This document shows, piece after piece, positions 7,676-37,673 of a stretch of 40,188 nucleotides of DNA (positions within the stretch are counted from its first letter, which is position 1; the number at the start of each line of letters is the position of its first letter). The position numbers were made by a program, and so were the translations under genes. The stretch is from Pseudomonadota bacterium (GTDB lineage Bacteria > Pseudomonadota > Alphaproteobacteria > Rhizobiales > Xanthobacteraceae): contig JACQAE010000051.1 in NCBI GenBank assembly GCA_016195095.1, forward strand, positions 1-40,188. Direction: 5' to 3'. Below the pieces are notes generated by a model. The model saw only the letters and a list, made by a program, of their open reading frames with translations. It searched no databases and was not told the origin of the DNA.

Positions 7676-7772
7676 GCTCCGACCTCCTACGCCCGGCAGC
7701 GAAGCCACGACGCCCGCGCCGCATGAACGCCCGGCAATCTTGGTCGGCCGCAACGCCGCGGCTGATCGCGCC

Positions 7773-8867: not shown

Positions 8868-8900
8868 TGTGCGCTCACGGCACAGGCACCGAAATCACGA

Positions 8901-9971
8901 TTATTTTACCTGGTAGCGTACCGGCCATTTGTGCCCGAGCTTTTCGGCTTCCTCGAGCGCGAGTTTGAGCACTTGCGATCCAGGCAAGCCGGCCTTGTCG
9001 AGCTCAGCGGCTTTTTCCTGCGGCCAGTTCTTGAGCGAGTTGGCCCAATCGATGCGCACCGAATCCGGCACCGCCTTGACGACGCTGCCGACGCTTTTGA
9101 GCTGGGCGATCTGTTTTGGGTAGTTCTCGGCGTTGACCGTGCCGGTCTTGTCTTCGTATTCCTTGGCCACTTCCACGATGATGTCCTTGACCTCCTTTGG
9201 CAGCTTCGCCCAGCGCGCCTTGTTCACCGTCAGGCCGTGCCAGGTGATCGCGCCGAAGCCGATCTCGGTATAGTACTTGCCCTGTTCGTAGAGCTTGAAA
9301 TTGATCCAGCCGGACGGAAACATGATCCAGCCGAGATAGACGCCGGTCTGCAGGCCGGTATAGGCCTCCACCAGCGATCCCTGCACCGGCACGGCACCGG
9401 CGAATTCCAGCCACTTGAGATTGAGGCCGGCGCCGGCAAGCTTCTTGCCCTTGATCTCGGCGACCGAATTCCAATCGAACGTCGTCCCCAGGTTGTAGCC
9501 GTTGTCGGCGATCAGCGCGAGCAGGTGTTGGTTGAACTTGTCCTCGAACACTTTCGCCATATACGGCACCTTGGCATACACGGCGCGCGCCAGCTTGACG
9601 CTCTTGACGGCGTCCATGGTGCCGAATGGCAGCATCACCTGGAAGGCATGCAATGGCAGGTTCGATGGCTCGAAACAGAAGCAATAGCCGCCGATATCGA
9701 TGATCCCCGACTGCACGCCTTCGAGCGTGTCGGCGACCTTGACCATGGCGCCGCCGTAACCTTCGACGAATTCAACCTTGTGCTTGGTGCGCTGGGCGAC
9801 GCGCTTGGTCACTTCCGGGACAAAGAAATTCTGCATCAGGTTGACGTAGGTATTCACGGCCGGATGGCCGGAGGCGATACGCAACCGTATCGTTTCCTGC
9901 GCATGCGCGGCGCCGACCGCGCCGGCCATGGTCGCGGCGGCAATCAGACCGGCCATCAATCGCAATTGCAT
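8901..9971 (-). CDS. TRAP transporter DctP-like solute-binding protein
   Basis: 356 aa; signal peptide MQLRLMAGLIAAATMAGAVGAAHAQ then ETIRLRIASGHPAVNTYVNLMQNFFVPEVTKRVAQRTKHKVEFVEGYGGAMVK... Confidence 0.92.
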   Translation of the reverse strand: MQLRLMAGLIAAATMAGAVGAAHAQETIRLRIASGHPAVNTYVNLMQNFFVPEVTKRVAQRTKHKVEFVEGYGGAMVKVADTLEGVQSGIIDIGGYCFCFEPSNLPLHAFQVMLPFGTMDAVKSVKLARAVYAKVPYMAKVFEDKFNQHLLALIADNGYNLGTTFDWNSVAEIKGKKLAGAGLNLKWLEFAGAVPVQGSLVEAYTGLQTGVYLGWIMFPSGWINFKLYEQGKYYTEIGFGAITWHGLTVNKARWAKLPKEVKDIIVEVAKEYEDKTGTVNAENYPKQIAQLKSVGSVVKAVPDSVRIDWANSLKNWPQEKAAELDKAGLPGSQVLKLALEEAEKLGHKWPVRYQVK

Positions 9972-19365: not shown

Positions 19366-19935
19366 ATGCTCAAGGTCCTCGATCGGCTCGAGGAGATCCT
19401 GATCGCAACGCTGATCGCGGCAGCGACATTGATCATCTTCGTCGCCGTCGTTCATCGTTACGGGGCGGGCGTTCCACTCCTCTATCCCTATCTGTTCTGG
19501 ATCGACCTGAGCTGGGCGCAGGAACTGTGCATCTACATGTTCGTTTGGATGGCCAAGTTCGGCGCCGCCTATGGCGTGCGCACCGGCATTCATGTCGGCG
19601 TCGACGTGCTCGTCAACCTCTTGTCCCCCGAACGTCGGCGCAAGGTGGTCCTGTTCAGCCTGTTCTGCGGCGCGCTATTCACCTTCATCGTCGGAACCAT
19701 GGGCGCCAAGTTCGTCATCGAGCTCTATCCGACCGGGCAGGTTTCGCCCGACATGGAAATTCCGCGCTGGTTCGTGTTCGCATGCGTCCCGCTCGGTTCC
19801 TACCTCATGTGCTTTCGCTTCCTGCAGGTGGCGTGGACCTTCTGGCATACCGGCGATCTGCCGCGTCACGACCCGGGCCGCGTTGAAGGGGTTACCGTCA
19901 CCGACATCGATTCCACGCCGGAGGCGGCGCGATGA
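19366..19935 (+). CDS. TRAP transporter small permease (DctQ)
   Basis: Start MLKVLDRLEEILIATLIAAATLIIFVAVVHRYGAGV...LSWAQELCIYMFVWMAKFGAAYGVRTGIHVGVDVLVNLL; typical DctQ. Confidence 0.92.
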   Translation: MLKVLDRLEEILIATLIAAATLIIFVAVVHRYGAGVPLLYPYLFWIDLSWAQELCIYMFVWMAKFGAAYGVRTGIHVGVDVLVNLLSPERRRKVVLFSLFCGALFTFIVGTMGAKFVIELYPTGQVSPDMEIPRWFVFACVPLGSYLMCFRFLQVAWTFWHTGDLPRHDPGRVEGVTVTDIDSTPEAAR

Positions 19936-21257
19936 GCACGTTTTTGATCTTTGGCCTGCTCGTCGCCCTGATGCTCACCGGCATGCCGATCTCGATCGCG
20001 CTCGGCCTGACGGTGCTGAGCTTCCTGTTCCTCATGACACAAGTGCCGATCGAGGCCGTGGCGCTGAAGCTGTTCACCGGGATCGAAAGCTTCGAGATCA
20101 TGGCGATCCCGTTCTTCATCCTGGCCGGCAACTTCCTCACTCATGGCGGCGTGGCGCGGCGCATGATCCATTTCGCCACGACCATGGTCGGCCATTGGTA
20201 TGGCGGCCTCGGGCTCGCCGGCGTCGTCGCCTGCGCGCTGTTCGCCTCGGTGTCGGGGTCTTCGCCGGCGACGGTCGTCGCCGTCGGCTCGATCATTCTT
20301 CCGGCGATGGTCAAGCAAGGGTTTCCCAAACGTTTCGGCGCCGGCGTCGTCGCCACTTCCGGCGCGCTCGGCATCCTCATTCCGCCGTCGATCGTCATGG
20401 TCATCTTCGCCGTCGCGACCGGCGGCTCGGTCGCGCTCGATCCCGAGGGCAAGCGCGTGCTCTCCGCCTCGGTCGGCCAATTGTTCATCGCCGGGGTCCT
20501 TCCCGGGCTCATGCTGGCGTCGATGTTGTTCATGACCACGTTCTACCGCGCCTGGAAGAATGGCTATCCGCGCCTGCCGCGCGCCGATTGGGGCGAGCGG
20601 CTGACGGCGCTGCGCGAATCGTTTTGGGGGCTGGCGCTCATCATCATCGTGCTCGGCGGCATCTATAGCGGCTTGTTCACGCCGACCGAGGCAGCCGCCA
20701 TGTCGGCGGTCTACGCCTTCGTGATCGCCGTCTTCGTCTATCGCGACATGGACCTCAAGGACGTGCCCAAGGTCCTGCTCGGCTCCGCCAATATGAGCGC
20801 GATGATCCTCTACATCATCACCAATGCGGTGCTGTTTTCGTTCCTGATGACGCACGAGCAGATACCGCAGCGAATGACCGAGTGGATCACTGGCGCCGGC
20901 CTGACCTGGATCGAATTCCTGCTCATCGTCAATATCATCCTGCTCATGGCCGGCAACGTCATGGAGCCGTCATCGATCGTGCTCATCACGGCGCCGATCC
21001 TGTTTCCCATCGCCGTCAAGCTCGGCATCCACCCGGTGCATCTCGGCATCCTCATGACGGTGAACATGGAAGTGGGACTGTGCCATCCCCCGGTCGGCCT
21101 CAATCTCTACGTCGCCTCCGGCGTCGCCAAGATGGGCATCACCGAACTCACCATCGCCACCTGGCCGTGGCTGGTGACGATGCTCATCTTCCTCGTGATC
21201 GTGACCTATGTCCCGGAAATCTCGCTGTTCCTGCCGCAGCTGCTGGGAATGTTGTAG
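19932..21257 (+). CDS. TRAP transporter large permease (DctM)
   Basis: 441 aa; overlaps dctQ by ATGA; GMPISIALGLTVLSFLF...FEIMAIPFFILAGNFLTHGGVARRMI...LGILIPPSIVMVIFA...FTPTEAAAM. Confidence 0.96.
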   Translation: MSTFLIFGLLVALMLTGMPISIALGLTVLSFLFLMTQVPIEAVALKLFTGIESFEIMAIPFFILAGNFLTHGGVARRMIHFATTMVGHWYGGLGLAGVVACALFASVSGSSPATVVAVGSIILPAMVKQGFPKRFGAGVVATSGALGILIPPSIVMVIFAVATGGSVALDPEGKRVLSASVGQLFIAGVLPGLMLASMLFMTTFYRAWKNGYPRLPRADWGERLTALRESFWGLALIIIVLGGIYSGLFTPTEAAAMSAVYAFVIAVFVYRDMDLKDVPKVLLGSANMSAMILYIITNAVLFSFLMTHEQIPQRMTEWITGAGLTWIEFLLIVNIILLMAGNVMEPSSIVLITAPILFPIAVKLGIHPVHLGILMTVNMEVGLCHPPVGLNLYVASGVAKMGITELTIATWPWLVTMLIFLVIVTYVPEISLFLPQLLGML

Positions 21258-22748: not shown

Positions 22749-25535
22749 TCATTCCGCCGCCTGCCGCCCCACAACCAGGGGCTCAACTTTCGCCGCGCAA
22801 AACTTGAATTCCGGGATTTTGCCGAACGGGTCGAGCGCCGGATTGGTGAGCAAATTGGCCGCCGCCTCGGCATAGGCAAAGGGAATGAAAACGACGCCGT
22901 CGGGGACCGAATCGTCCTGACGAACGGCGAGTTCGATGACGCCGCGCCGGGTAGATACGCGCACGCGCTCGCCCGGCGCAATGGCGAGCCGGCTGATTTC
23001 CCGGCGCGATAGGCAAGCAACGGCGCCGGGCTCAAGCGCATCAAGCATCGTCGCCCGGCGCGTCATCGCGCCGGTGTGCCAATGTTCGAGCTGGCGGCCG
23101 GTAGTGAGAATCATAGGGAAATCAGCGTCGGGCCGCTCGTCCGGTGGCGTGAGTTTCGCGGCAACGAGCTTGCCGAGCCGGCCCGGACGCGGGAAGCCAT
23201 CGCCGAATACCACCGCACGGCCCGGCTTGTCGGGCGCATCGGAAGGGTAGGTGACGGAACTCTCGCGCTCAATTCGCTCCCAGGAAATGTTGTCGAGCGA
23301 AGGCATCAACGCGGCCATCTCGGCATAGATCTCGCGCGGATGTGTATAGGTCCAATTCACCCCCATGCGGTTGGCGATATCCTGGGTGATCCACCAGTCG
23401 GGCCTCGCCTCGCCGGGCAGCGGCAGCGCCTTGCGGCCAAGCTGCACCTGCCGATTGGTATTTGTGACGGTACCGTCTTTTTCCGGCCAGGCGGAGGCAG
23501 GCAGGATCACGTCGGCATAGACCGCGGTTTCGGTGAGGAAAATATCCTGCACGACAAGGTGGGAAAGGTGCGCGAGCGCTTCGCGCGCATGATTGAGGTC
23601 AGGATCCGACATCGCCGGATTTTCGCCCAGGATATACATGCCCTTGATCGTGCCGGCGTGGACCGCATTCATGATTTCGACGACGGTAAGGCCGCGCTTG
23701 GGATCAAGCCGCGTGCCCCAGGCATGTTCGAATTTCGCGCGGATGTCCTTGTTCTCGACCGAGGCATAGTCGGGAAAAAACATCGGAATGAGCCCGGCGT
23801 CGGACGCTCCCTGCACGTTGTTCTGGCCGCGCAGCGGATGCAGGCCCGTCCCGGGGCGGCCGACCTGCCCCGTGAGCAGTGCGAGCGCGATCAGGCAGCG
23901 CGCGTTGTCGGTGCCATGCGTGTGCTGCGACACGCCCATGCCCCAGAAAATGATAGCGCGTTCGGCCCGCGCATAGGTGCGCGCGACCTCACGCAGCGTG
24001 TCGGCTGAGATGCCGCAGATCGGCGCCATTTCCTCCGGCGTGAAATCCTTGACATGGGCGGCGAGCTCGGCGAATCCCTCCGTATAGGTCTGCACGTATT
24101 GCTGGTCGTAAAGTTTTTCGCCCACGATCACATTGAGCATGGCGTTGAGCAAGGCGACGTCCGCGCCGTTGCGGAACTGGAGCATATGGGTGGCGTGGCG
24201 CTTGAGCGCCTGGCCGCGCGGGTCCATGACGATCAGCTTGGCGCCGCGCTTGGCCGCCTGCTTGAAAAAGGTCGCCGCGACCGGATGGTTCTCGGTCGGG
24301 TTGGCACCGATTACGACGATGACGTCGGAATTGGCGCATTCATTGAACGTCGCGGTGACCGCGGCGGAACCGATCCCCTCGATGAGCGCGGCAACCGATG
24401 AGGCATGGCACAGGCGGGTGCAATGATCGACATTGTTGGTGCCGAACGCGGTACGCACGAGCTTCTGGAAGAGATAGGCCTCCTCGTTCGACGCCTTGGC
24501 GGAGCCGAACCCGGCCAGCGCCTTGGAGCCATGCTGCTCGCGCACCTGCTTCAGCCCAGAGGCAGCGAATGCAAGCGCTTCTTCCCAGGTCGCCTTGCGG
24601 AAATGCGTCCAGGGATTGCGCGGGTCAACCTTGTCATGCGCGACCTTGGCAACGCCCTCCTTGCGGATCAGCGGCTGCGTGAGGCGATCGCGGTTGTGCA
24701 CATAGTCGAAACCGAAGCGGCCCTTGACGCAGAGCCGGTTCTCGTTGGCGGGCCCGTCGCGACCGGACACGGAAATGAGCCTATCATCCTTGATGTGATA
24801 GGTCAGAAGACAGCCGACGCCGCAATAGGGGCACACGCTGTCAACCGTGCGATCGGCGAATTCGCTACGCACGTTGTTGGCATCGACCAGCGAGGACGGC
24901 ATCAGCGCGCCGGTCGGGCAGGCCTGCACGCACTCCCCGCAGGCGACGCAGGTCGACGCGCCCATCGGATCGTCGAAATCGAACACGATCTTGGCGCCAT
25001 GACCGCGGCCGGCCATGCCGATGACGTCGTTGACCTGCACTTCGCGGCAAGCGCGCACGCACAGATTGCAGTGGATGCAGGCGTCGAGATTGACCGCCAT
25101 CGCCGGGTGGCTGCGATCCGATACCGGGCGGAGATCGGCGGGGAAGCGGCTCGCGACCACGTCCTGGCGCGCCGCCGTTTTCCAGAATTCCGACTGCGGG
25201 TCATGCGCCGTCGCGCGCGCCGGCTGGTCGGCGGCGAGCAATTCAAGCACCATCTTGCGCGCGGCCATGGCGCGATTGCTTTGCGTCGTCACCTGCATGC
25301 CCGGCGTCGGCGTGCGAATGCAGCTGGCGGCGAGCACGCGCTCGCCTTCGATCTCGACCATGCATACGCGACAATTGCCGTCCGGCCGATAGCCGGGCTT
25401 TGGCAGATAGCACAGATGCGGCAGCTTGATGCCGACACGGCGCGCGGCGCGAAAGATCGTCTCGCCGGCGCGAATGTCCACCTCCCGGCCGTCGAGCGTG
25501 AAGGCGTTCTTGATCATCGCATCCGTCCTGCTCAT
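22749..25535 (-). CDS. fdsA: Formate dehydrogenase alpha subunit (NAD-dependent, molybdo/bis-MGD)
   Basis: Start MSRTDAMIKNAFTLDGREVDIRAGETIFRAARRVGIKLPHLCYLP (NuoG-like 2Fe-2S domain); ferredoxin CxxCxxC; VCPYCGVGC; NNVDHCTRLCHASSV (active-site Cys, not Sec); C-terminal VRQDDSVPDGVVFIPF. Confidence 0.95.
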   Translation of the reverse strand: MSRTDAMIKNAFTLDGREVDIRAGETIFRAARRVGIKLPHLCYLPKPGYRPDGNCRVCMVEIEGERVLAASCIRTPTPGMQVTTQSNRAMAARKMVLELLAADQPARATAHDPQSEFWKTAARQDVVASRFPADLRPVSDRSHPAMAVNLDACIHCNLCVRACREVQVNDVIGMAGRGHGAKIVFDFDDPMGASTCVACGECVQACPTGALMPSSLVDANNVRSEFADRTVDSVCPYCGVGCLLTYHIKDDRLISVSGRDGPANENRLCVKGRFGFDYVHNRDRLTQPLIRKEGVAKVAHDKVDPRNPWTHFRKATWEEALAFAASGLKQVREQHGSKALAGFGSAKASNEEAYLFQKLVRTAFGTNNVDHCTRLCHASSVAALIEGIGSAAVTATFNECANSDVIVVIGANPTENHPVAATFFKQAAKRGAKLIVMDPRGQALKRHATHMLQFRNGADVALLNAMLNVIVGEKLYDQQYVQTYTEGFAELAAHVKDFTPEEMAPICGISADTLREVARTYARAERAIIFWGMGVSQHTHGTDNARCLIALALLTGQVGRPGTGLHPLRGQNNVQGASDAGLIPMFFPDYASVENKDIRAKFEHAWGTRLDPKRGLTVVEIMNAVHAGTIKGMYILGENPAMSDPDLNHAREALAHLSHLVVQDIFLTETAVYADVILPASAWPEKDGTVTNTNRQVQLGRKALPLPGEARPDWWITQDIANRMGVNWTYTHPREIYAEMAALMPSLDNISWERIERESSVTYPSDAPDKPGRAVVFGDGFPRPGRLGKLVAAKLTPPDERPDADFPMILTTGRQLEHWHTGAMTRRATMLDALEPGAVACLSRREISRLAIAPGERVRVSTRRGVIELAVRQDDSVPDGVVFIPFAYAEAAANLLTNPALDPFGKIPEFKFCAAKVEPLVVGRQAAE

Positions 25536-25590
25536 CGCTTCATCCGATTCGGAGCCCGCCAGCTTAGCGTGGTTTGTCCACGGTCGGACG

Positions 25591-27282
25591 TCACCAGCCC
25601 GACAGCGGCCGCGCCAAATCCTCGCGAAAATGCTTGCGCACGCTGGCCAGCGGATTTGGCGCCGCCTGCCCGAGGCCGCAAATGGAGGCGTCGCGCATGG
25701 CGTCGGACAACTCGTTGAGCAGCACCTCGTCCCAGGGGCCGCTGGCCATAAGCTTGACCGCCTTTTCCGTCCCAACCCGGCAGGGCGTGCACTGGCCGCA
25801 GCTTTCGTCCTCGAAGAAGCGCATCAGATTGAGCGCCACCGCCTTCATGTCGTCCTTGTCCGATAGCACCACAACGGCATGCGAGCCGACAAAGCAGCCA
25901 TGCGGCTCAAGCGTACCGAAATCGAGCGGAATGTCCGCCATGGCAGCGGGCAGGATGCCACCCGAGGCGCCGCCGGGAAGATAGGCTTTGAACGTGTGCC
26001 CTTGGGCCATGCCATTGCAAAACTCGTGGATCAGTTCATAGGCGGTCACGCCCGCGGGCGCCAACTTGACGCCAGGCTCGCGTACGCGCCCGGAGACCGA
26101 GAAGCTGCGCAAGCCCTTGCGCTCGCGCCGGCCATGCGCGGTGAACCATCCCGCGCCCTTTTCGATGATGTCGCGCACCCAATAGAGCGTCTCGACGTTC
26201 TGCACCAGCGTCGGACGGCCGAACAGGCCGACCTGCGCCACATAGGGCGGACGATGGCGCGGCAGCCCGCGCTTGCCTTCGATCGACTCAATCATCGCCG
26301 ATTCCTCGCCGCAGATATAAGCGCCAGCGCCGCGACGCAGGTGGATCCTGGTTTGCGCCGACAGCCCGGCGGTTTCGAGCCTGGCGATCTCGGCGAGGAG
26401 CATCAGGCGGATCTCGGGATATTCATCGCGCAAATAGATGTAGACGTCGTGCGCGTCCACGATCCAGGCGGCAATCAGCATGCCCTCGAGAAAGCGGTGC
26501 GGGTCGCGCTCGAGATAATGGCGATCCTTGAAAGTGCCGGGCTCGCCTTCATCGGCATTGACCGCCATAAGCCGCGGCCCAGGCTCCGCGCGCACCAGCG
26601 TCCATTTGCGCCCGGTCGGAAAGCCAGCGCCGCCAAGGCCGCGCAGGCCGGCGTCGCTGACCTTGGCGATGATATCCTCGCGCTTGCGCTTGCCCGCGAG
26701 ACAATCGGCGAGATGGATATAGCCGCCGCCGGCGCGATAGGTCGCAAAGTCGCGGCCCGGCGTCACGGCCGTCGGATGCGCGTGCACGGCGCATGCCGCC
26801 ACGACCTTGCCCGGCGTCGCCGCCATCACCTGCGCATGCCCGACCGCGACGACCGGCGCGCGGTCGCAGGCGCCCATGCATGGCGCGCGCACGACGCGCA
26901 CGCCCGCGCCGAGCCGCCCCGGCAGCTCCGCCAGGAGGCGTTCGGCGCCGGCCATGGCGCAGGACAAGCTGTCGCACACGCGCACCGTCAGCGGCGGCGG
27001 CGGCGCGCCGGCCTTGATCACGTCGAAATGCGCGTAGAACGTCGCCACCTCGTAGACTTCCGTTTGCGCCAACTTCATCTCCTGCGCCAATGCGGCCAGA
27101 TGATCGCCGGAGAGAAAGCCGTAGCGGTCCTGGATCAGGTGCAGGTGCTCGATGAGCAGGTCGCGCCGCCGCTCGCGCTCGCCGAGCAGAAGGCGGATGT
27201 CGTCGAGCGCGCGTGGCTCGACCTGCCGCCCCTTCGGCGTCTTGGGCGGGCGTCGTCTGCCGCTGGCAGGTGTCTCGCTCAT
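25591..27282 (-). CDS. fdsB: Formate dehydrogenase beta subunit, NuoE-NuoF (FdsG-FdsB) fusion
   Basis: NuoE-like part (LIEHLHLIQDRYGFLSGDHLAALAQEM...VCDSLSCAMAG...RAPCMGACDRAP) followed by NuoF-like part (GLGGAGFPTGRKW, NADEGEPGTFKDRHYLERDPH, GAGAYICGEESAMIES, ESCGQCTPCRVGTEK). Confidence 0.94.
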   Translation of the reverse strand: MSETPASGRRRPPKTPKGRQVEPRALDDIRLLLGERERRRDLLIEHLHLIQDRYGFLSGDHLAALAQEMKLAQTEVYEVATFYAHFDVIKAGAPPPPLTVRVCDSLSCAMAGAERLLAELPGRLGAGVRVVRAPCMGACDRAPVVAVGHAQVMAATPGKVVAACAVHAHPTAVTPGRDFATYRAGGGYIHLADCLAGKRKREDIIAKVSDAGLRGLGGAGFPTGRKWTLVRAEPGPRLMAVNADEGEPGTFKDRHYLERDPHRFLEGMLIAAWIVDAHDVYIYLRDEYPEIRLMLLAEIARLETAGLSAQTRIHLRRGAGAYICGEESAMIESIEGKRGLPRHRPPYVAQVGLFGRPTLVQNVETLYWVRDIIEKGAGWFTAHGRRERKGLRSFSVSGRVREPGVKLAPAGVTAYELIHEFCNGMAQGHTFKAYLPGGASGGILPAAMADIPLDFGTLEPHGCFVGSHAVVVLSDKDDMKAVALNLMRFFEDESCGQCTPCRVGTEKAVKLMASGPWDEVLLNELSDAMRDASICGLGQAAPNPLASVRKHFREDLARPLSGW

Positions 27283-27299
27283 GTCGATTAAACCACGGC

Positions 27300-28997
27300 T
27301 CAAAACAGGCCAACGATGCGGCCGTCGGCGCCGACGTCGATGGCGTCGGCCGCGGGCACGCGCGGCAGGCCGGGCATGGTCATGATGTCACCGCAGATCG
27401 CCACCACGAATTCGGCTCCGGCGGAGAGCCGTACCTCGCGCAGCGGAATCGTGTGATCGGCCGGCGCGCCCTTGGCGTCGGGATTGGTCGAGAAGCTATA
27501 CTGGGTCTTGGCGATGCAAACCGGAAGCTTGCCGTATCCCATGGCCTCGAAATTGGCGAGCTGGTCGCGCACCGCCTTGTCCGCCGCGACGTCCTTGGCG
27601 CGGTAGATTTCCTTGGCGATGGTGCGCACCTTCTCAAACAGGGGCATTTCGTCGGGGTAGAGGAGCTTAAGTCGGCTCTTGCCGGAATCGACGACCTTGA
27701 CCACCGCGCGCGCGACGTCGGCAGCGCCCTTGCCACCCATCGCCCAATGATCGGCCATGACCGCCTCGACGCCCAACTTGGCACAGGCGCTCGTCACCAG
27801 CGCGATCTCGGCGTCGCTATCGGCGGAAAAGCGGTTGATGGAAACCACCGGCACGATGCCGAATTTCTGGATGTTCTCGACGTGGCGCTCGAGGTTGGCC
27901 ATGCCGGCGGCGAGCGCCTTGAGATTTTCCGTTTTGAGATTTTCCTTCTTGACGCCGCCATGCATCTTGAGCGCGCGAATGGTCGCCACGATCACCGCGC
28001 AGTCAGGTGTCAGGCCGCTCTTGCGGCACTTGATGTCGAGAAACTTCTCGCCGCCGAGGTCGGCGCCGAAACCGGCTTCGGTGACCACATAGTCGGCGAG
28101 CTTGAGCGCCGTCGTGGTCGCCAGCACCGAGTTGCAGCCATGCGCGATATTGGCGAACGGCCCGCCATGGATGAAGGCGGGCGTGCCTTCGAGCGTCTGC
28201 ACGAGATTGGGCGAGAGCGCGTCCTTGAGCAATGCCGTCATTGGGCCCTGCGCCTTGAGATCGCCGGCGCGCACCGGCTTGCGCTCGCGCGTATAGCCGA
28301 CGATGACATTGGAGAGCCGCTTCTTGAGATCCTCAAGATCGCTGGCAAGACAGAAGATCGCCATGACCTCCGAAGCGACCGTGATGTCGAAGCCGTCTTC
28401 GCGCGCGAAGCCATTGGCGACGCCGCCAAGCGAGGACACGATGGCGCGTAGCGAGCGGTCGTTCATGTCGATCGCGCGCCGCCAGGCGACGCGGCGGCTG
28501 TCGATGCCGAGCGCGTTGCCCCAATAGATATGGTTGTCGATGAGCGCCGAGAGCAGATTATGCGCGGTACCGATGGCGTGGAAGTCTCCTGTGAAATGCA
28601 GGTTGATATCCTCCATCGGTACGACTTGCGCATAGCCGCCGCCGGCGGCGCCGCCCTTGACGCCGAAACAAGGTCCGAGCGAGGGCTCGCGCAGGCACAG
28701 CATTGCCTTCTTGCCGATGTGATTGAGCGCGTCGGTGAGCCCGACCGTGGTCGTCGTCTTGCCTTCGCCCGCCGGCGTTGGCGTAATTGCCGTAACGAGA
28801 ATGAGCTTGCCGTTGGGCTTTGCCTTTAAAGAGCGAATGTAGTCCATCGATATCTTGGCCTTATAGTGGCCATAGGGATCGAGGTTTTTCGCATCGATGC
28901 CAAGCTTCTCGCGCGCGATGTCGAGGATCGGCTGTTTGTTCGCGGCCTGGGCGATGTCAATGTCGGATTTGGGGTTCTGGTGCTGCGAGGCGGGCAT
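27300..28997 (-). CDS. fhs: Formate--tetrahydrofolate ligase
   Basis: 565 aa; [69 protein letters not shown]. Confidence 0.97.
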
Positions 28998-29038
28998 TAT
29001 TCGGTTCCGTTGTTCAAGCGATGAAAAATTTCGTCGGT

Positions 29039-29968
29039 TCAGCCGAGGCGCTTGCCGGCCGTGAGGCCGCTTGCTGCCGCGAATTCTCCCGCCGCGATCT
29101 TGCCGCCGTCCGCCGGTTTCACGCGCAGCACCTTGATGCGGCCATCCGCACAGGCCACCACAAATCCATCGCCGTCAACAGCGACGACTTCGCCCACTTT
29201 GCCGCCGATGCCCTTGGGGTCGCGCGCGGGAAGTGGTTTTGATTCGAAAATCTGCAATGGCTTGCCGGCGAACGCGGTAACGGCGCCGGGCGCGGGATTG
29301 CAACCACGGATGAGGTCGTGGATCTGCCGCCACGGCTTGCCCCAATCAATGCGCGCATTGTCGGCGGTGCAGCGGCCCTCATAGGTCGCCTGGTGATGAT
29401 CCTGTTTGATGCGCGGCGCCTTGCCCCCCTTGACCAGATCGACGGCCTCGAGCATGGCCGCGACGCCCATGGGGAACAGGCGGTCGAAATAGACCGAGCC
29501 GAGCGAATCGTCGGGACCGATCGGCGTCGTCTTTTGCAGCAGCACGTCGCCGGTATCGAGCCCATCATCCGGCCAGAAGATCGACAGGCCGGTTTGCGTC
29601 TCGCCCATGATGATCGGCCAATTGATGGCGCTTGGGCCGCGATATTTTGGCAGCAGCGAGGGGTGGTACTGGATTGAGCCGCGCGTCGGAACATTGAGAA
29701 ATTCCGACGGCACGAACAGGGTCACGAAGGCCATGACCTGCAGGTCGGGCTTGAGGGCGCGAAAATCCTCCCAAACCGGCGGCTGACGATAGGACGCGGG
29801 CTGAAAGACCGGCAGCTTGGCGGCCAGCGCCGCCTCCTTGAGCGGGTCGGCACGCGCGCCTTCCTTCTCAGGCGCGGCATAGACGGCAACCACGTCGTCG
29901 CCGCGCTTGATCAGCGCCTCGAGCACCGCCTTGCCGAATGCCTGCTGGCCGTGCACAACGATCCGCAT
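29039..29968 (-). CDS. Stand-alone formyltransferase-family protein resembling the ALDH1L1 10-formyl-THF hydrolase domain (Fmt fold)
   Basis: [43 protein letters not shown]...[48 protein letters not shown]...[17 protein letters not shown]. Catalytic His/Asp motifs retained; no ALDH domain. Confidence 0.88.
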
Positions 29969-30089
29969 CTTGCCTCCTCCCCGCCTCGCGCGCCGCCGCG
30001 CTCGCCGCGACCGCATCGCTTGCCGCTCCTGGAAAGTCCAGGACCCGGCGGCCAGGCAATCCTTGTCTAGATCACGACGATTTCGGATC

Positions 30090-30122
30090 GAATCGATCTA
30101 AAATCATGCACGTGATCGATTC
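30090..30122. repeat. Palindromic intergenic element, copy B
   Basis: GAATCGATC-taaaatcatgcacgt-GATCGATTC; perfect 9-bp arms. Left flank TCACGAC..TTTCGGATC resembles the flank of copy A (TCGCGAC..AATCGGATC). Confidence 0.65.
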
Positions 30123-30127
30123 TTATT

Positions 30128-31660
30128 CTAGGCGGCCGCAGCCTTGGTCTTTTCCGGCGCGGTAATGGCGCCGGAGGCTCGGATCTCGGCGATTTCCATT
30201 TCGGAATAGCCAAGCTCCTTGCCAAGAATCTCGCTCGTATGCTCACCAAGCAGCGGAGAGCGCACGACATCGCTTATTGAATCTGACATCTTGATCGGAT
30301 TGCCGACGCTCAGGTACTTGCCGCGCGTGGGATGATCGATCTCGACAATGGTGCCGGTGGCGCGCAGCGATTGCTCCTCGGCGATCTCCTTCATCGACAG
30401 GATCGGACCGACTGGAATATCTACCCTATTGCAGATATCCATCACCTCGAACTTGGTCCGGGTCTTGGTCCATTCCTCGATCGTATCGAAGATGCGGCGC
30501 AGGCGCGGCAGGCGCGCACGCGGCGTGGCGTAATCGGGATCGGTCTTCCACTCGGGCCTGCCGATCAGGTCGCAGATCGATTCCCACACCGGTGCCTGGG
30601 TGATGAAATAGATGTAGGCGTCGGGATCGCTCTCCCAGCCCTTGCATTTGAGAATCCAACCCGGCTGCCCGCCACCGGAATCATTGCCGGCACGCGGCAC
30701 CGCGTCGCCGAAGGGGACGCCTTCGCCATATTGGCTGTATTCGGAAAGCGGACCATGCTTGAGCCGCTGCTGGTCGCGCAGCTTGACGCGGCACAGGTTG
30801 AGGACGCCGTCTTGCATCGCCGCCAGCACCTTCTGCCCGCGTCCGCTGCGGTTGCGCTGATACAGTGCGCAGACGATGCCGAGCGCGAGATGAATCCCGG
30901 TGCCGGAATCGCCGATCTGCGCGCCGGTGACGAGTGGGGGACCGTCGCGAAAACCAGTGGTCGAAGCCGATCCGCCGGCGCATTGCGCGACATTCTCATA
31001 GACCTTGCAGTCCTCATAAGGACCTGGACCGAAACCTTTCACCGACGCGACGATCATGCGCGGATTGAGCTTATGGATATGCTTCCAGGTCAGCCCCATG
31101 CGATCGAGCGCGCCGGGCGCGAAATTCTCCACCAGCACGTCGCAGTGCCGCACCAGGCGATCGAGGATTTCCTTGCCCCTGGGATGTTTGGAATCGATCG
31201 TGATCGAGCGCTTGTTGTGGTTGAGCATGGTGAAATACAGGCTGTCGGCATTGGGTACGTCGCGCAATTGCCCGCGCGTGATGTCGCCAACGCCGGGGCG
31301 CTCGACCTTGATCACGTCGGCGCCGAACCAGGCCAGAAGCTGCGTGCAGGTCGGGCCCGATTGCACGTGCGTGAAGTCGAGAATACGAACGCCGTCGAGT
31401 GCCTTGCCGGCCTGGCCGAACGGCCGCGTGGTCGGTGGCGGAACCCGCGGCCGCGCCGCTTTCGCCGCCGTCGAGTTCTTCGCCGCCGGCTTGGTGCCGG
31501 TCGACGGTTTCACGACCTTGCGTGACTTCGCAGCGTTCTGAGTGGCCTTCCTCGCTGCAATGTTTTTTGCTGCCGCGTTCTTCATCCCCGCTTTTCTTGT
31601 ACCGATATTTCTCCCGACCGCTTTTTTGTTGCCTATCTTTTTCTTGCCCGTTTTCGTCAT
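30128..31660 (-). CDS. frc: Formyl-CoA transferase (class III CoA transferase) with an atypical basic N-terminal extension
   Basis: Conserved body [64 protein letters not shown] (catalytic Asp region), [15 protein letters not shown] (glycine loop). Start at [13 protein letters not shown]. Confidence 0.92.
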
Positions 31661-31742
31661 TGCCGTTCCCCTTGCCCGATCCTGCGGATGGTGCGTCACG
31701 CACCGCTAGCGCAGCGCCCGCCTAGCCGCTCTCACGACAGCA

Positions 31743-33497
31743 CTATTTGTACATCGTCTGGTTTTTCGTCCCTGGCGCGTACTCGTTGGGGTCCACCCAG
31801 ACATTGACCACCGCCGACTTGCCGGATTTGGCCACCTGCTCGCGCGCCTGGCGCAGCGCCGGCGCGATTTTCGCGGCCTCGCGCACCTCGATTCCCCAGC
31901 CGCCCCATTGCCGCGCGAAATGCGAGAACTCCATGTCGCCGAGCTTGTTGCCGATATTGCCGCGCTGCGCGCCGTATTTTGCGATCTGACCGTAACGGAT
32001 CTGGTTCATGGCCGAATTGTTGCCAATAACCGCGATATAGGGCGCACCGAAACGATCGGCGGTTTCCATGTCGAAGGCGGTCATGCCAAAGGAGCCGTCG
32101 CCGTAGTAGCAAAGCACTTCCTTCTTGGGATGCGCGAGCCGCGCCGCCATCGCGAAGCCGGTACCAACGCCGAGCGAGCCGAGCGCGCCGGGGTCCATCC
32201 AGTTGCCGGGGCCGCGCGGGCGCACCGCCTGTGCGGAGATGGTGACCACGTCGCCGCCATCGCCGATATAGATCGTATCCTCGGTGAGAAACTCATTGAT
32301 CTCATAGGCGACGCGGTAGGGATGGATCGGCGATTGATCCGACGTGAATACCGGCATCAGCTTTTCGAGCGCCGCGTCCTCGGCGGCCTGCAATTCCTTC
32401 ATCCATTGCCGACGCGCTTGACGGCGGTCATTCTTGAGCCGCCTGCTCGCGGCCTTGAGCAGCGCCGCGCACACCGCGCCCGGATGGCCGACAATACCGA
32501 GCGCGACGTCGCGGTTCTTGCCGACGGTGCGGTAGTCCATGTCGACCTGGACAAGCGTCGGCACGCTGATGCGCTTGCCATAACCCATGCGGAAGTCGAA
32601 CGGCGTGCCGATGATGACGATGACGTCGGCCTTACCGAAGGCGAGCGAGCGGGTGCGGTCGAAATGGTGCGGGTCGCCGGGCGGCAGCGTGCCGCGGCTG
32701 CCGCCGTTGAAATAGCCGGGAATATCGAGCCCACGCAAAAGCGCGACCGCCTCGTCGTGGCCACGCGCGGCCCAGACCTGCTGGCCGAACAGGATCGCCG
32801 GGCGCTCGGAATTGAGCAAAATGTCCGCCAGCTTCTCGATGTCGTTGGGATCGCCGATCGATTGCACGGACGCGCGATAATGGCCGGGCTTGGGTAGGAC
32901 AGCGCGCGAAAGATCGACCTCGCGGTCGAGCACGTCGCGCGGAATCTCGAGATAGCTCGGTCCATAGGCGCCCGCGAAACACTCGCGCGCCGCCATCGAC
33001 ACCATGTCGGCGACGCGCTCGGTGGACATGACCGTGGACGCGAATTTGGTGATCGGGCGCATGATGTCGACATGCGGCAGGTCCTGTAGACCGCCCATGC
33101 GCCATTGGTTGAGCGCACTTTGCCCGCCAATATGCAACACCGGGCTTTCCGAGCGGAACGCGGTGGCGATGCCGGTCACCGCATTGGTGCAGCCGGGACC
33201 AGCCGTCGTCACCACGCAACCGAGCTTGCCGGTCTGGCGCGCGTAGCCGTCGGCGGCGTGCGCGGCGGTCTGCTCGTGGCGCACGTCGACGATGCGGATG
33301 CCTTCGTCGAGGCAGCCGTCATAGATATCGATGATGTGGCCGCCGCACAGGGTGAAGATCGTATCGACGCCCTCCGCCTTGAGCGCTTTGGCGACGAGAT
33401 GGCCGCCCGAAATGACATTGGCGTCCCTGCTCTTCTGCTTGAGCGTGTCGTCGGCGGTCGTCGTGGCCGGCTTCGCGGCTGCGGTCGCTTGCGCCAT
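31743..33497 (-). CDS. ThDP-dependent enzyme of the acetolactate synthase / oxalyl-CoA decarboxylase / 2-hydroxyacyl-CoA lyase superfamily
   Basis: 584 aa; GGHIIDIYDGCLDEGIRIVDVRHEQTAAHAADGYARQ (cofactor Glu region), TAGPGCTNAVTGIATAF, ThDP/Mg site GDGSFGMTAFDMETADRFGAPYIAVIGNNSAMNQ. Adjacent to frc. Confidence 0.85.
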   Translation of the reverse strand: MAQATAAAKPATTTADDTLKQKSRDANVISGGHLVAKALKAEGVDTIFTLCGGHIIDIYDGCLDEGIRIVDVRHEQTAAHAADGYARQTGKLGCVVTTAGPGCTNAVTGIATAFRSESPVLHIGGQSALNQWRMGGLQDLPHVDIMRPITKFASTVMSTERVADMVSMAARECFAGAYGPSYLEIPRDVLDREVDLSRAVLPKPGHYRASVQSIGDPNDIEKLADILLNSERPAILFGQQVWAARGHDEAVALLRGLDIPGYFNGGSRGTLPPGDPHHFDRTRSLAFGKADVIVIIGTPFDFRMGYGKRISVPTLVQVDMDYRTVGKNRDVALGIVGHPGAVCAALLKAASRRLKNDRRQARRQWMKELQAAEDAALEKLMPVFTSDQSPIHPYRVAYEINEFLTEDTIYIGDGGDVVTISAQAVRPRGPGNWMDPGALGSLGVGTGFAMAARLAHPKKEVLCYYGDGSFGMTAFDMETADRFGAPYIAVIGNNSAMNQIRYGQIAKYGAQRGNIGNKLGDMEFSHFARQWGGWGIEVREAAKIAPALRQAREQVAKSGKSAVVNVWVDPNEYAPGTKNQTMYK

Positions 33498-33530
33498 GGG
33501 ACGAGTCCCTCCTGGATTTATCCGCTGCGT

Positions 33531-34259
33531 TCAATCGAGATAGTCGGCGTGGCGCGCGACGTGCTCGGCGAGACCAAGCGCGTGGCTGCGCACCAAGTTT
33601 TCCGCGCGCGCGGTGTCACGCGATTCGATGGCCTGGATGATGTTGAGATGATCGCGGATCGAGCGGTCGGCGCGATCCTCCTCGCCGATGGTCTTGCGCC
33701 GGATCATGCGCATGTGGGCGAACAGATTCTCCGCCAGGTCGATCAACACGCCATTCTTGCTCATGCGGATGATGGACTGGTGAAATTCGATATTCACCTC
33801 GGAATATTCGTCGAGCCGTGCATGCAGCTCGCCGTTTTCAAAGCGCGTGAACATGCGCCGAAGCGTGGCGATCTCCTTGTCCTCGGCGTGCTGCGTGATC
33901 AACCGCGCCGCCATGCTTTCCAAGGCCGCCCAGGCGGTTATCAGCTCGATGACCTCTTGGCGCGTCTTGCGCACCACGTAGATGCCGCGCCGCGGCACCG
34001 AGCGCACAAAGCCCTCGCGCTCCAGCTGCGCCATGGCTTCGCGTACGGGCGTTCGCGAGATTCCGAGATCCTGCGCCAGTTGGCGCTCGTCGAGGCGCAC
34101 GTCGTCAGGCTGGTCATAGATCACGTCGCGCAGCGCGGTATAGGCGCGATCGGCGAAAGTCGAGGTATCCCCAATCGGCGCCAGGGCCACACGCCCAAGG
34201 CTGGAGGAACTGGAAGGGCCGGAGGCCGGAGGAACGGAATTCATCAACTCTGCTCCCAC
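33531..34259 (-). CDS. GntR family transcriptional regulator, FCD (FadR-type) effector domain
   Basis: 242 aa; TFADRAYTALRDVIYD...LDERQLAQDLGISRTPVREAMAQLEREGFVRSVPRRGIYVV then an all-alpha FCD-like C-terminus with HQSI. Confidence 0.95.
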   Translation of the reverse strand: MGAELMNSVPPASGPSSSSSLGRVALAPIGDTSTFADRAYTALRDVIYDQPDDVRLDERQLAQDLGISRTPVREAMAQLEREGFVRSVPRRGIYVVRKTRQEVIELITAWAALESMAARLITQHAEDKEIATLRRMFTRFENGELHARLDEYSEVNIEFHQSIIRMSKNGVLIDLAENLFAHMRMIRRKTIGEEDRADRSIRDHLNIIQAIESRDTARAENLVRSHALGLAEHVARHADYLD

Positions 34260-34281
34260 GCGGTGCGGTTCAACGTGATTG

Positions 34282-34298
34282 TGGTATACATAATTCCA
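34282..34298. promoter_or_regulatory. Candidate operator, site 1: TGGTATACATAATTCCA
   Basis: Imperfect dyad TGGNAT-N5-ATNCCA 23 bp upstream of the gntR start codon; same pattern as 37657..37673. Confidence 0.55.
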
Positions 34299-34363
34299 TA
34301 TTATTTACAAGTGGTTTGCGATATGGCGGGGGGGGGGGGGACGAAACCGGGCGCCGCTCCTGC

Positions 34364-35884
34364 CTAAGCGCGTCCCGAGGACGCCGGCGATGCGGCCAGC
34401 CGCAGGCGCGTCCAGCCGACCTGGATTGCTCCCCAGAACAAGGCGATCAGACCCAGCGCCATGATGGTGCCCACAAGGCCGTTCGCCCAGAAGATGGTCA
34501 GGCTGCCCTGCGATGCGAGCAGCGACTGGCGGAATGTCTCTTCCGCCTTGTCACCGAGCACGATGGCGAGCACGAGCGGGGCCAGCGGATAATTGCATTT
34601 TTTGAGCACATAGCCGAGCACGCCGAAGACGAGCATCAGCACGACATCGAAGACGCTGTTGTGCACGGTGTAGGCGCCGATGGCGCAGATCACCAGGATG
34701 AGCGGCGCAATGATGCTGAACGGAATGCGCAGAATCGCCGCGAAGACCGGAACGCAGGTCAGCACAACGATCAGTCCGGCGATGTTGCCGAGATACATGC
34801 TGGCGATCAGGCCCCAGACGAACTCCTTCTGCTCGACGAACAAGAGCGGGCCCGGTTGCAGTCCCCAGATGAGCAAGCCGCCAAGCAGCACGGCAGCCGT
34901 GGGCGAGCCTGGCACGCCGAGCGCGAGCATCGGCAGAAGCGCCGCCGTGCCCGCCGCGTGTGCCGCCGTTTCCGGCGCAATGACGCCTTCGATCTCGCCG
35001 CTGCCGAATTTGTCGCCGTTCTTCGAGGCGCGCTTCGCGATGCCGTAGCTCATGAATGAGGCCGGCGTCGCGCCCGCCGGCGATATGCCCATCCAGCAGC
35101 CGATCAGGCACGACCGCAATGACGTCGCCCAATAGCGCGGTAACCGCGCCCAGGTCTGGAACACGACGCGCGGATTGATGCCTGCCTTGCCGCCCTTGAA
35201 GCTCAGCCCCTCTTCGATCGTGAGCAGGATTTCGCCAATGCCGAACAGGCCGATCACGGCGATGAGGAAATCAAACCCGTTGAGCATGGATTCGAATCCG
35301 AAGGTCAGCCGCAATTGCCCGGTGACCTGGTCGAGCCCGACCGCTGCGAGCGCGAAGCCGATCATCATCGAGGCGACCGTCTTGGTCGGCGGCTCCTTGC
35401 TCATTCCGACAAAGCTGCAAAAGGCGAGAAAATAGACGGAGAACTGTTCCGCCGGACCGAACTTGAGCGCGAAATTCGCCACCAGCGGCGCCACCAGTGT
35501 GATCATGATCACCGCAAACAGCGCGCCGATGAAGGACGAGGTGAACGCGGCGGTCAGCGCCTCTCCGGCTTGGCCCTTTTGCGCCATCGGATGGCCGTCG
35601 AAGGTCGTCGCCACCGACCATGGTTCGCCGGGAATGTTGAACAGGACCGAGGTGATAGCGCCGCCAAACAGCGCGCCCCAATAGATGCAGGAGAGCATGA
35701 TGATCGCCGATGTCGGCGACATGGTGAAGGTGAGCGGCAACAGGATGGCCACGCCATTGGCGCCGCCCAGCCCCGGCAGCACTCCAATCAGCACGCCGAG
35801 AATGATGCCGATGAACATCACCATGATGTTGAACGGCTGCAGCACGACGGCAAAGCCGTGAAACAGGTTGGTGAGTTCTTCCAT
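34364..35884 (-). CDS. tctA: Tripartite tricarboxylate transporter large permease TctA
   Basis: Start MEELTNLFHGFAVVLQPFNIMVMFIGIILGVLIGVLPGLGGANGVAILLPLTF; GALFGGAITSVLFNIPGEPWSVATTFDGHPMAQKGQAGEAL; LALGVPGSPTAAVLLGGLLIWGLQPGP. Confidence 0.97.
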   Translation of the reverse strand: MEELTNLFHGFAVVLQPFNIMVMFIGIILGVLIGVLPGLGGANGVAILLPLTFTMSPTSAIIMLSCIYWGALFGGAITSVLFNIPGEPWSVATTFDGHPMAQKGQAGEALTAAFTSSFIGALFAVIMITLVAPLVANFALKFGPAEQFSVYFLAFCSFVGMSKEPPTKTVASMMIGFALAAVGLDQVTGQLRLTFGFESMLNGFDFLIAVIGLFGIGEILLTIEEGLSFKGGKAGINPRVVFQTWARLPRYWATSLRSCLIGCWMGISPAGATPASFMSYGIAKRASKNGDKFGSGEIEGVIAPETAAHAAGTAALLPMLALGVPGSPTAAVLLGGLLIWGLQPGPLLFVEQKEFVWGLIASMYLGNIAGLIVVLTCVPVFAAILRIPFSIIAPLILVICAIGAYTVHNSVFDVVLMLVFGVLGYVLKKCNYPLAPLVLAIVLGDKAEETFRQSLLASQGSLTIFWANGLVGTIMALGLIALFWGAIQVGWTRLRLAASPASSGRA

Positions 35885-35930
35885 GGTCGCGTTTCCCCGA
35901 ATTGCGCGCCGGCCTAAGTGACCACCTGTC

Positions 35931-36458
35931 TCACAGCCCCAGCAGATTCTCGATCGGCCCCTTCGGCAGCGGCACGAGAAACCAGCGTTCGAACACCAGG
36001 AAGAACGCCAACGGCACACCGACCGATACCGCGGCGATCAGCGCCCAGCCATAGCGGCCGAGCCAGCGCATGAAGAAGCCGATCAGCACAGCCGAGGCGA
36101 AGTAAATCCCGACCCATGGCAACACCGCGACATAGATCGCCGTGGGGATGACCACGGACAGAACCTGGCGCAACGCGCTCCACTCGGCGAACAATCGCTC
36201 GCCGGCGATACGCGCGCGCGCCTGCAATAGATTGATGACGCTGGCGGCGAAAATTATGAGACCGACATAGAATGGAAAAAATCCCGCCTTCGGTCCCTCG
36301 TCGCCCCAACCGATCCCAACCTGCAGGCTGCCAACGATCACGACCAGCGCAAAGCCCACCATTCCCAGCGCAACGCCGGCCTCTACCGCGCGCTGCGAAG
36401 GGCCGCCGGCATCGGCGGATTGTGTATTTTCGGCCATGCCCAAGATCTCCGGACGCAT
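35931..36458 (-). CDS. tctB: Tripartite tricarboxylate transporter small permease TctB
   Basis: MRPEILGMAENTQSADAGGPSQRAVEAGVALGMVGFALVVIVGSLQVGIGW...GPKAGFFPFYVGLIIFAASVINLLQA; start could alternatively be 36437. Confidence 0.87.
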   Translation of the reverse strand: MRPEILGMAENTQSADAGGPSQRAVEAGVALGMVGFALVVIVGSLQVGIGWGDEGPKAGFFPFYVGLIIFAASVINLLQARARIAGERLFAEWSALRQVLSVVIPTAIYVAVLPWVGIYFASAVLIGFFMRWLGRYGWALIAAVSVGVPLAFFLVFERWFLVPLPKGPIENLLGL

Positions 36459-36511
36459 GTCGTTCGCGCCCGCCGGCGCGGAATATTGCGGGCGGGCGCG
36501 CTGGCGGCGTG

Positions 36512-37519
36512 TTATTTCGCGGCCATGAAGCCGGCGGCCTTCATCAGCTCTTCGTGACGCTTTTCTTCTCTCGCAACCCACTTGGCATAGTCGTCGCCGG
36601 CCATGAAGGTTGTGTTGAAGGCGCCGTTCTTCATGAGGTCCGTCCACTCCGGCGTCGCACGTACCTTCTTGAACAATTCGACGTAGAAGGCGACCGCTTC
36701 CTTGTCGACACCGCCGGGCATGAAGATGCCGCGCAGCATGAGATACTCGACATCGAGCCCCTGCGACTTGCAGGTCGGCACGTCCTTCCAAGCCATGCCA
36801 TCGACCATCTTCTCATCGTAATGCACCGGCTGCTCATCGAAGATGCACAGCGGACGCACCTTACCTGCGCGCCAATGCGCGACCGCCTCGATCGGGTTGT
36901 TGACGGTCGAGTCGACGTGGTTGCCGACAAGCTGAACGGCAACGGCACCGCCGCCACGCTGCGGGATATAGATGAACTTGGCGCCGGTGGATTTCTGGAT
37001 CGCCTCGGTGATGATCTGATCTTCCTGCTTGGAGCCAGTGCCGCCCATCTTGAACGTGCCGTTCGCCGCCTTGGCGGCCTCGATATATTCCTTGGTCGTC
37101 TTGTAGGGTTTTTCGGCGTTGACCCAGAGAATGAATTCGTCGAGCGCCAGCATCGCCACCGGCGTCAGGTCTTTCCAGTTGAACGGAATGCCGGTCGCCA
37201 TCGGCGTCGTGAACAGGTTCGACAGCGTGATGATTATCTTGTGCGGGTTGCCCTTGGAATTCTTGACGTCAAGAAATCCTTCGCCGCCGGCGCCGCCGGA
37301 CTTGTTGACGACGACCATCGACTGAGTCATCAATTTGTGCTTGGTGACGATGCCCTGGATCGTGCGCGCCATTTGGTCGGCGCCACCGCCGGTCCCGGCA
37401 GGAATAATGAATTCAACCGGACGGGTTGGCTCCCACGCAGCGCTTGCCGCAATTGGTGCCAGCGCGATTGCAGCGCCGATCCCCAAACCCAATCCCCAAG
37501 CAACGATTTTACGCTCCAT
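36512..37519 (-). CDS. tctC: Tripartite tricarboxylate transporter solute-binding protein (TctC/Bug family)
   Basis: Start MERKIVAWGLGLGIGAAIALAPIAASAAWEPTRPVEFIIPAGTGGGADQMARTIQGIV; signal peptide plus Bug-type N-terminal motif. Confidence 0.94.
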   Translation of the reverse strand: MERKIVAWGLGLGIGAAIALAPIAASAAWEPTRPVEFIIPAGTGGGADQMARTIQGIVTKHKLMTQSMVVVNKSGGAGGEGFLDVKNSKGNPHKIIITLSNLFTTPMATGIPFNWKDLTPVAMLALDEFILWVNAEKPYKTTKEYIEAAKAANGTFKMGGTGSKQEDQIITEAIQKSTGAKFIYIPQRGGGAVAVQLVGNHVDSTVNNPIEAVAHWRAGKVRPLCIFDEQPVHYDEKMVDGMAWKDVPTCKSQGLDVEYLMLRGIFMPGGVDKEAVAFYVELFKKVRATPEWTDLMKNGAFNTTFMAGDDYAKWVAREEKRHEELMKAAGFMAAK

Positions 37520-37656: not shown

Positions 37657-37673
37657 TGGTATAACATATGCCA
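37657..37673. promoter_or_regulatory. Candidate operator, site 2: TGGTATAACATATGCCA
   Basis: Dyad TGGNAT-N5-ATNCCA (extended GTGG...CCAC) 137 bp upstream of the tctC start codon; matches the dyad upstream of gntR. Confidence 0.55.

Follow-up and report, generated by a model that had tools for sequence, protein, structure and literature searches.

Oxalate ranks among the major exudates of plants and fungi, and the standard marker of the bacteria that consume it is oxc, the gene of oxalyl-CoA decarboxylase (OXC). P. phytofirmans carries a single oxc, and its deletion abolishes oxalotrophy (PMC3886118). Deletion of frc-oxc in C. necator abolishes growth on oxalate, whereas deletion of the reductase gene apbA2, whose PanE-family product is a proposed oxalyl-CoA reductase, merely slows it (PMC7486775). 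Several oxalotrophic strains were reported in 2026 to have "lacked oxc", and no replacement was named (PMC13184526). Here we describe a cluster of ten co-directional genes in a 40,188-nucleotide stretch of DNA (the window), which is one whole contig (JACQAE010000051.1) of a Xanthobacteraceae assembly (GCA_016195095.1; 3.8 Mb, 307 contigs, 96% complete). The cluster occupies 22749-37519 on the minus strand and reads tctC-tctB-tctA-gntR-ThDP-frc-FTH-fhs-fdsB-fdsA, where ThDP stands for the gene of a thiamine diphosphate (ThDP)-dependent enzyme and FTH for that of a formyltransferase resembling the ALDH1L1 hydrolase domain. It is likely to be an operon for oxalate uptake and degradation in which the ThDP protein takes the place of canonical OXC. 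All ten genes lie at the coordinates of a preliminary description of this DNA, and its domain calls are correct.

The frc gene (30128-31699) encodes the formyl-CoA:oxalate CoA-transferase. Its product scores 325 bits for CoA_transf_3 and matches YfdW with 570 bits. The conserved Asp of the GDS.TG motif is present (QIGDSGTG, aligned to ALGDSNTG of YfdW). The formyl-CoA-driven CoA transfer proposed in the preliminary description is supported, since Frc exceeds the cut-off of the formyl-CoA transferase equivalog TIGR03253 (720 versus 504). The window protein also has a Lys/Ala-rich N-terminal extension of ~95 residues (31400-31699). Such extensions, 60-120 residues long, Lys/Ala-rich, and histone H1-like, are seen in the lineages near the window (the window itself and the loci numbered L009, L014, L018, and L019) and are absent from L020, L036, and L077.

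The core of the finding is the ThDP gene (31743-33497), whose product contains three TPP-enzyme domains and is the proposed non-orthologous oxalyl-CoA decarboxylase. It had been taken for OXC or a 2-hydroxyacyl-CoA lyase. Both are wrong as family assignments, since the protein fails both curated models, with 207 bits against the OXC equivalog TIGR03254 (cut-off 739) and 347 bits against NF058623, the equivalog of the lyase AcHACL (cut-off 600). The top NCBIfam match is an "acetolactate synthase" model, likewise under its cut-off. We aligned 79 sequences of the ThDP family to O. formigenes OXC, whose active-site residues are E56, Y120, E121, Y483, S553, and R555 (O. formigenes numbering; PMC10192776). 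Only E56, the ThDP-activating Glu, is retained; the other five are replaced by L, Q, I, N/A, and T, respectively, in 78-79 of the 79 sequences. The family forms a separate 100/100 clade in the tree and canonical OXC its own 100/100 clade, the long branches leaving the deep order unsure. Canonical OXC was therefore rejected on score, active-site residues, and monophyly with known OXC. An AcHACL-type lyase was rejected because the cut-off is missed and because the position of Glu493, the acid/base catalyst of AcHACL (PMC13327070), holds Ile in 79/79 sequences. A glyoxylate carboligase-like role is ruled out by the presence of the ThDP-activating Glu.

By sequence and fold, the nearest solved enzymes are 2-hydroxyacyl-CoA lyases. 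Formyl-CoA-producing lyases rank first in a fold comparison of the AlphaFold model, with E. coli OXC lower; the mean pLDDT of this model is 74 and that of the active-site loops (128-150 and 494-520) is below 50, and we draw no pocket-level reading from it. The cluster could thus be a 2-hydroxyacyl-CoA lyase module, in which Frc would use formyl-CoA to activate a 2-hydroxy acid taken up from outside, and cleavage by the ThDP enzyme would release formyl-CoA and an aldehyde or ketone. This agrees with the lyase-type Gln found at the OXC Glu121 position in 79/79 sequences and with an AcHACL score that exceeds the OXC score. We nevertheless consider it improbable, given the missed AcHACL cut-off, the invariant Ile at the Glu493 position, an Frc of the oxalate type, and TTT-type clusters (those with a tripartite tricarboxylate transporter, TTT) that contain no conserved aldehyde-handling enzyme. 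The OxlT and PanE neighbors, the exclusion of OXC, and the oxalotrophy of OXC-negative strains described below all favor oxalate.

One scan for the ThDP family returned 588 encoding stretches. The proteins of the best 80 of these are 75-90% identical and come from Alpha-, Beta-, and Gammaproteobacteria; versions from Streptomyces and Nonomuraea, on plasmid-collection records, are 63-64% identical. RefSeq labels the Streptomyces and Phyllobacterium proteins only "thiamine pyrophosphate-binding protein", and a literature search joining Frc with the name of the family's protein found nothing in the library searched. Of the homologous loci, 70 extend far enough downstream for the next gene to be read, and in 68 of these it is frc, so the linkage is not due to chance. 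In most loci gntR sits just before the ThDP gene. The core of the cluster recurs across the three proteobacterial classes. The preliminary description had treated the genes as one module and named a synteny search as the check; the synteny is conserved (for example in L014, L016, L036, L075, L077, L082, and L093). The two loci without an adjacent frc are marine (L087, 10001-13000, and L090, 3439-6200; assemblies TMED61 and UBA7447) and read TctCBA-ThDP-FTH, followed by an AceK-like gene. Plasmid p1 (927 kb) of Streptomyces fungicidicus carries a compact cassette of ThDP, frc, ADP-forming acyl-CoA synthetase, and OFA transporter genes (L107, 8983-15679; 64% identical). The Phyllobacterium cluster borders a gene with the annotation BhcR, the regulator of the beta-hydroxyaspartate cycle (L108, 14226-15056), suggesting that oxalate is connected to glyoxylate metabolism there.

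The ThDP gene and canonical oxc are nearly mutually exclusive, although shared ancestry inflates the counts. Among 60 Cupriavidus genomes, OXC was found in 42, the ThDP gene in 14, and both in one (Fisher 2e-8). The corresponding numbers are 143, 40, and 5 for 300 Burkholderiaceae (Fisher 8e-7) and 34, 6, and 0 for 61 relatives of the window (Fisher 0.005). Within the window's own family, OXC occurs in 30 of 37 genera, and the two carriers of the ThDP gene (genomes G000 and G029) are without it. The two genes also occupy similar PanE-GntR-FAH-LysR contexts in Cupriavidus. The locus of C. metallidurans CH34 reads PanE-GntR-SucDC-ThDP-Frc-ACS-FAH-c7-LysR-OxlT-LysR; genomes with OXC have PanE-GntR-Frc-FAH, and OXC-Frc with c7-LysR and OxlT nearby. 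A literature search for an oxalate phenotype of strain CH34 found nothing. The idea that the "oxc" of C. necator H16 (PMC7486775) is itself a member of the ThDP family is unsupported, since canonical OXC is above its cut-off in 40 of the 60 Cupriavidus genomes, among which strain H16 itself is not identifiable, and the two genes are nearly exclusive.

Published phenotypes can be connected with the cluster. Calcium oxalate is degraded by P. graminis LMG18924, P. tuberum LMG21444, and P. phenoliruptrix LMG22037 (PMC3886118, Table 1), and oxalate degradation was confirmed for P. graminis C4D1M (there LMG 18924), P. tuberum LMG21444, and C. grimmiae LMG27580 (R27; PMC13184526). The genomes of these four strains (L067, L050, L059, and L070) contain a ThDP-Frc-OxlT cluster and are without OXC. 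A bicupin oxalate decarboxylase (OxdC) is absent from the three genomes searched for it, those of P. graminis, P. tuberum, and P. phenoliruptrix. Together with the frc adjacency, the near exclusion, and the similar contexts, these phenotypes suggest that the ThDP protein replaces OXC. The genome of the window itself encodes a single Frc above the cut-off and has no canonical OXC at E 1e-120, no OxdC, and no match to PanE at 1e-60. It is thus without a recognized outlet for oxalyl-CoA, which makes the ThDP enzyme the natural candidate.

The preliminary description had left the imported acid open. The genomic evidence points to oxalate, because OxlT replaces TctABC in sister loci, an oxalyl-CoA reductase-like PanE is frequent, and the ThDP gene and oxc are mutually exclusive. 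In the cycle that we propose, TctABC would import oxalate and Frc would take CoA from formyl-CoA and place it on oxalate, with oxalyl-CoA and formate as products, as expected from its close match to a characterized family. The ThDP protein would then convert oxalyl-CoA to formyl-CoA and CO2, doing the work of oxc from another branch of the ThDP superfamily; genomic displacement and the published phenotypes argue for this step. Formyl-CoA would return to Frc, and the net reaction would be oxalate to formate and CO2.

Several observations weigh against this reading. Five of the six OXC active-site residues are replaced in the ThDP family, the nearest solved enzymes are lyases, and we found no biochemistry for any member of the family. 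The two marine loci are without an adjacent frc. The exclusion is subject to the effect of ancestry noted above and is also incomplete: in a set of 81 genomes, selected for carrying the ThDP gene or being the window's own, OXC is above its cut-off in eight and present as a fragment in one (~10% co-occurrence). The absences in the window's genome have to be read with its incompleteness in mind. The phenotype strains have OxlT-type rather than TTT-type clusters, and they also carry PanE, so reductive use of oxalate via PanE could account for part of their phenotype.

In a further alternative, oxalate is used but oxalyl-CoA is consumed by PanE reduction only, and the ThDP enzyme serves another step, such as carboligation of formyl-CoA with glyoxylate or formaldehyde. 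Enzymes of the HACL type do run in the ligation direction (PMC13327070), and many loci point to glyoxylate assimilation through their PanE, SucCD, and, at some sites, glycerate kinase and BhcR neighbors. On the other hand, the exclusion with OXC would go unexplained, the ThDP-activating Glu speaks against a glyoxylate carboligase-like enzyme, and the module occurs in three genomes (the window's own, G029, and G061) that have no match to PanE at 1e-60. We therefore regard this alternative as very unlikely.

The transporter is of the TTT type, with all three families (PF01970, PF07331, and PF03401) above their cut-offs in one operon. It consists of the periplasmic solute-binding protein TctC (36512-37519; 107 bits), here the candidate oxalate receptor, the small membrane subunit TctB (35931-36458; 67 bits), and the large membrane subunit TctA (34364-35884; 497 bits). 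We could not read the ligand of TctC from its nearest solved relatives, since these (4x9t and 25hk) are generic TTT binding proteins and uninformative in this respect. A run of ~13 C between tctA and gntR (34330-34345) is possibly a slippage-prone tract or an assembly artefact.

In well-covered loci, TctA and OxlT alternate: TctA alone is found in 12, OxlT alone in 36, both in one, and neither in nine (Fisher 3.5e-6, a value that overstates independence because the lineages share ancestry). The representative OxlT of a sister locus scores 565 against TIGR04259 (cut-off 335). The search for oxlT was confined to the window, which has none. The lineage pattern is broken by L020, which combines TctABC with an acyl-CoA synthetase, and by L023, in which both transporters surround one ThDP-Frc pair. 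Fds genes lie inside the fetched stretch in 4 of 13 TctA loci versus 2 of 36 OxlT loci. This distribution fits, and does not prove, a division in which the antiporter exports formate and the TTT importer leaves it inside for oxidation.

The TTT-type cluster might handle an acid different from that of the OxlT-type clusters, its related enzymes notwithstanding. TTT receptors bind many carboxylates, we know of none that binds oxalate, and all of the phenotype data come from OxlT-type strains. However, the ThDP and Frc proteins share 75-90% identity whichever transporter is present, and their invariant active-site residues do not differ; L023 has both transporters around a single pair of these genes, and PanE also neighbors the TTT-type loci L074, L077, and L088. 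We thus give a separate acid a small chance, and keep oxalate as the probable substrate. The preliminary description had singled out the TTT link as the prime novelty. In its favor, no paper joining a TTT importer and oxalyl-CoA was found in the library searched, but the ThDP enzyme is the more interesting part. The locus is best read as new in its non-orthologous decarboxylase and TTT importer, and as known in its Frc chemistry.

Downstream of frc lie FTH (29039-29968, Formyl_trans_N+C), fhs (27300-28997), fdsB (25591-27282), and fdsA (22749-25517); the start of FTH is probably 29968 and that of FdsA ~25517. Fhs, a formate-tetrahydrofolate ligase, scores 898 bits for FTHFS and 929 against NF010030 (cut-off 652). 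FdsB, the NAD/FMN subunit of formate dehydrogenase, is a NuoE-NuoF fusion (NuoE-like and Complex1_51K domains), and FdsA, the molybdenum-containing catalytic subunit with a molybdopterin Fdh domain, scores 745 against TIGR01591 (cut-off 666). The established function of the FdsAB family is the NAD-dependent oxidation of formate to CO2. FTH most resembles the hydrolase domain of ALDH1L1, and the catalytic triad His106/Ser108/Asp142 is kept in all 19 aligned members. In the ALDH1L1 domain the acceptor of the formyl group is a phosphopantetheine thiol; for its relative in HypX, transfer to CoA is proposed (PMC6802093). A pure hydrolase beside Fhs would create a futile cycle. FTH and/or Fhs also alternate with an ADP-forming acyl-CoA synthetase (14 loci with the former only, 27 with the latter only, one with both, 12 with neither; Fisher 3.6e-5, which overstates independence in the same way), and this replacement matches a role of FTH-Fhs as an ATP-linked converter. 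We hypothesize that FTH moves formyl between CoA and tetrahydrofolate (THF), so that FTH and Fhs would interconvert formyl-CoA and formate via 10-formyl-THF, with ATP spent in one direction and gained in the other. The pair might charge the catalytic pool of formyl-CoA or draw it down, and supply C1 units.

The regulator gene gntR (33531-34259), with GntR and FCD domains, is the probable local regulator of the module and would control the transporter and the enzymes through an operator of the TGGTATACCA type. An operator-like palindrome, TGGTATAACA, with one mismatch to TGGTATACCA, lies upstream of tctC (37657-37666), and another, TGGTATACAT, with two mismatches and weak in the window alone, upstream of gntR (34282-34291). 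Within the window the palindrome is not significant (6 matches versus 3.6 expected); only its enrichment across loci is. It occurs upstream of tctC in 7 of 18 loci (0.23 expected), of panE in 6 of 31 (0.36), of sucC in 5 of 25 (0.34), and of the acyl-CoA synthetase in 4 of 33 (0.44), compared with 8 of 449 unrelated genes (5.5). The count upstream of gntR (20/66) is not independent, as the motif was first noticed there. Elsewhere, the window encodes two more tripartite importers, of the TRAP type (6020-9956 and 19366-21257). The first includes a DctQM fusion with two adjacent paralogous genes at 7773-9956; the other contains a second DctM.

If the missing decarboxylase is the ThDP family, oxc-based surveys overlook a large share of oxalate degraders, marine and soil lineages included. 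It would also explain the oxalotrophic Burkholderia-group strains reported without oxc (PMC13184526), and it supplies a named gene, testable by a single deletion or complementation. Studies of enzyme mechanism and synthetic C1 pathways based on formyl-CoA would both profit from a decarboxylase that lacks the known catalytic residues of OXC. A more tentative proposal, which we hold as possible rather than probable, is that the locus represents a second complete form of the oxalate pathway, in which oxalate enters through the TTT importer, a non-orthologous enzyme decarboxylates oxalyl-CoA, and the formyl-CoA shuttle is THF-linked (FTH exchanging formyl between CoA and THF, Fhs coupling it to ATP). 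Such a shuttle would allow formyl-CoA to be primed from formate, or its energy to be recovered. To our knowledge, neither a TTT importer of oxalate nor a formyl-CoA:THF formyltransferase would have a precedent.

Compared with known systems, the cluster shares with the Frc-OXC type II pathway of Oxalobacter, Cupriavidus necator, and Paraburkholderia phytofirmans the same Frc equivalog and a formate dehydrogenase, and its sister loci have the accessory PanE, GntR, FAH, LysR, and OxlT in common with that pathway. It differs in the clade and active-site residues of its ThDP enzyme, in having TTT instead of OxlT, and in its added THF-linked genes. AcHACL-type lyases are the nearest solved homologues of the ThDP protein (260 bits), with the same fold, formyl-CoA as product, and downstream oxidation of formate. 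Unlike these, the window protein is below the family cut-off and has Ile in place of Glu493, activation is by Frc rather than an ATP-dependent ligase, and acetone-handling genes are absent. The HACL1/HACS enzymes (RuHACL 6XN8, 8VZC) are acyl-CoA ThDP enzymes of the same fold, and their catalytic Gln is kept here, but they are only ~26% identical over the fold alignment and branch beside canonical OXC, apart from the ThDP family. Finally, compared with the ALDH1L1 hydrolase domain and the HypX N-terminal domain, FTH keeps the His106/Ser108/Asp142 triad but is a stand-alone protein in a formyl-CoA operon.

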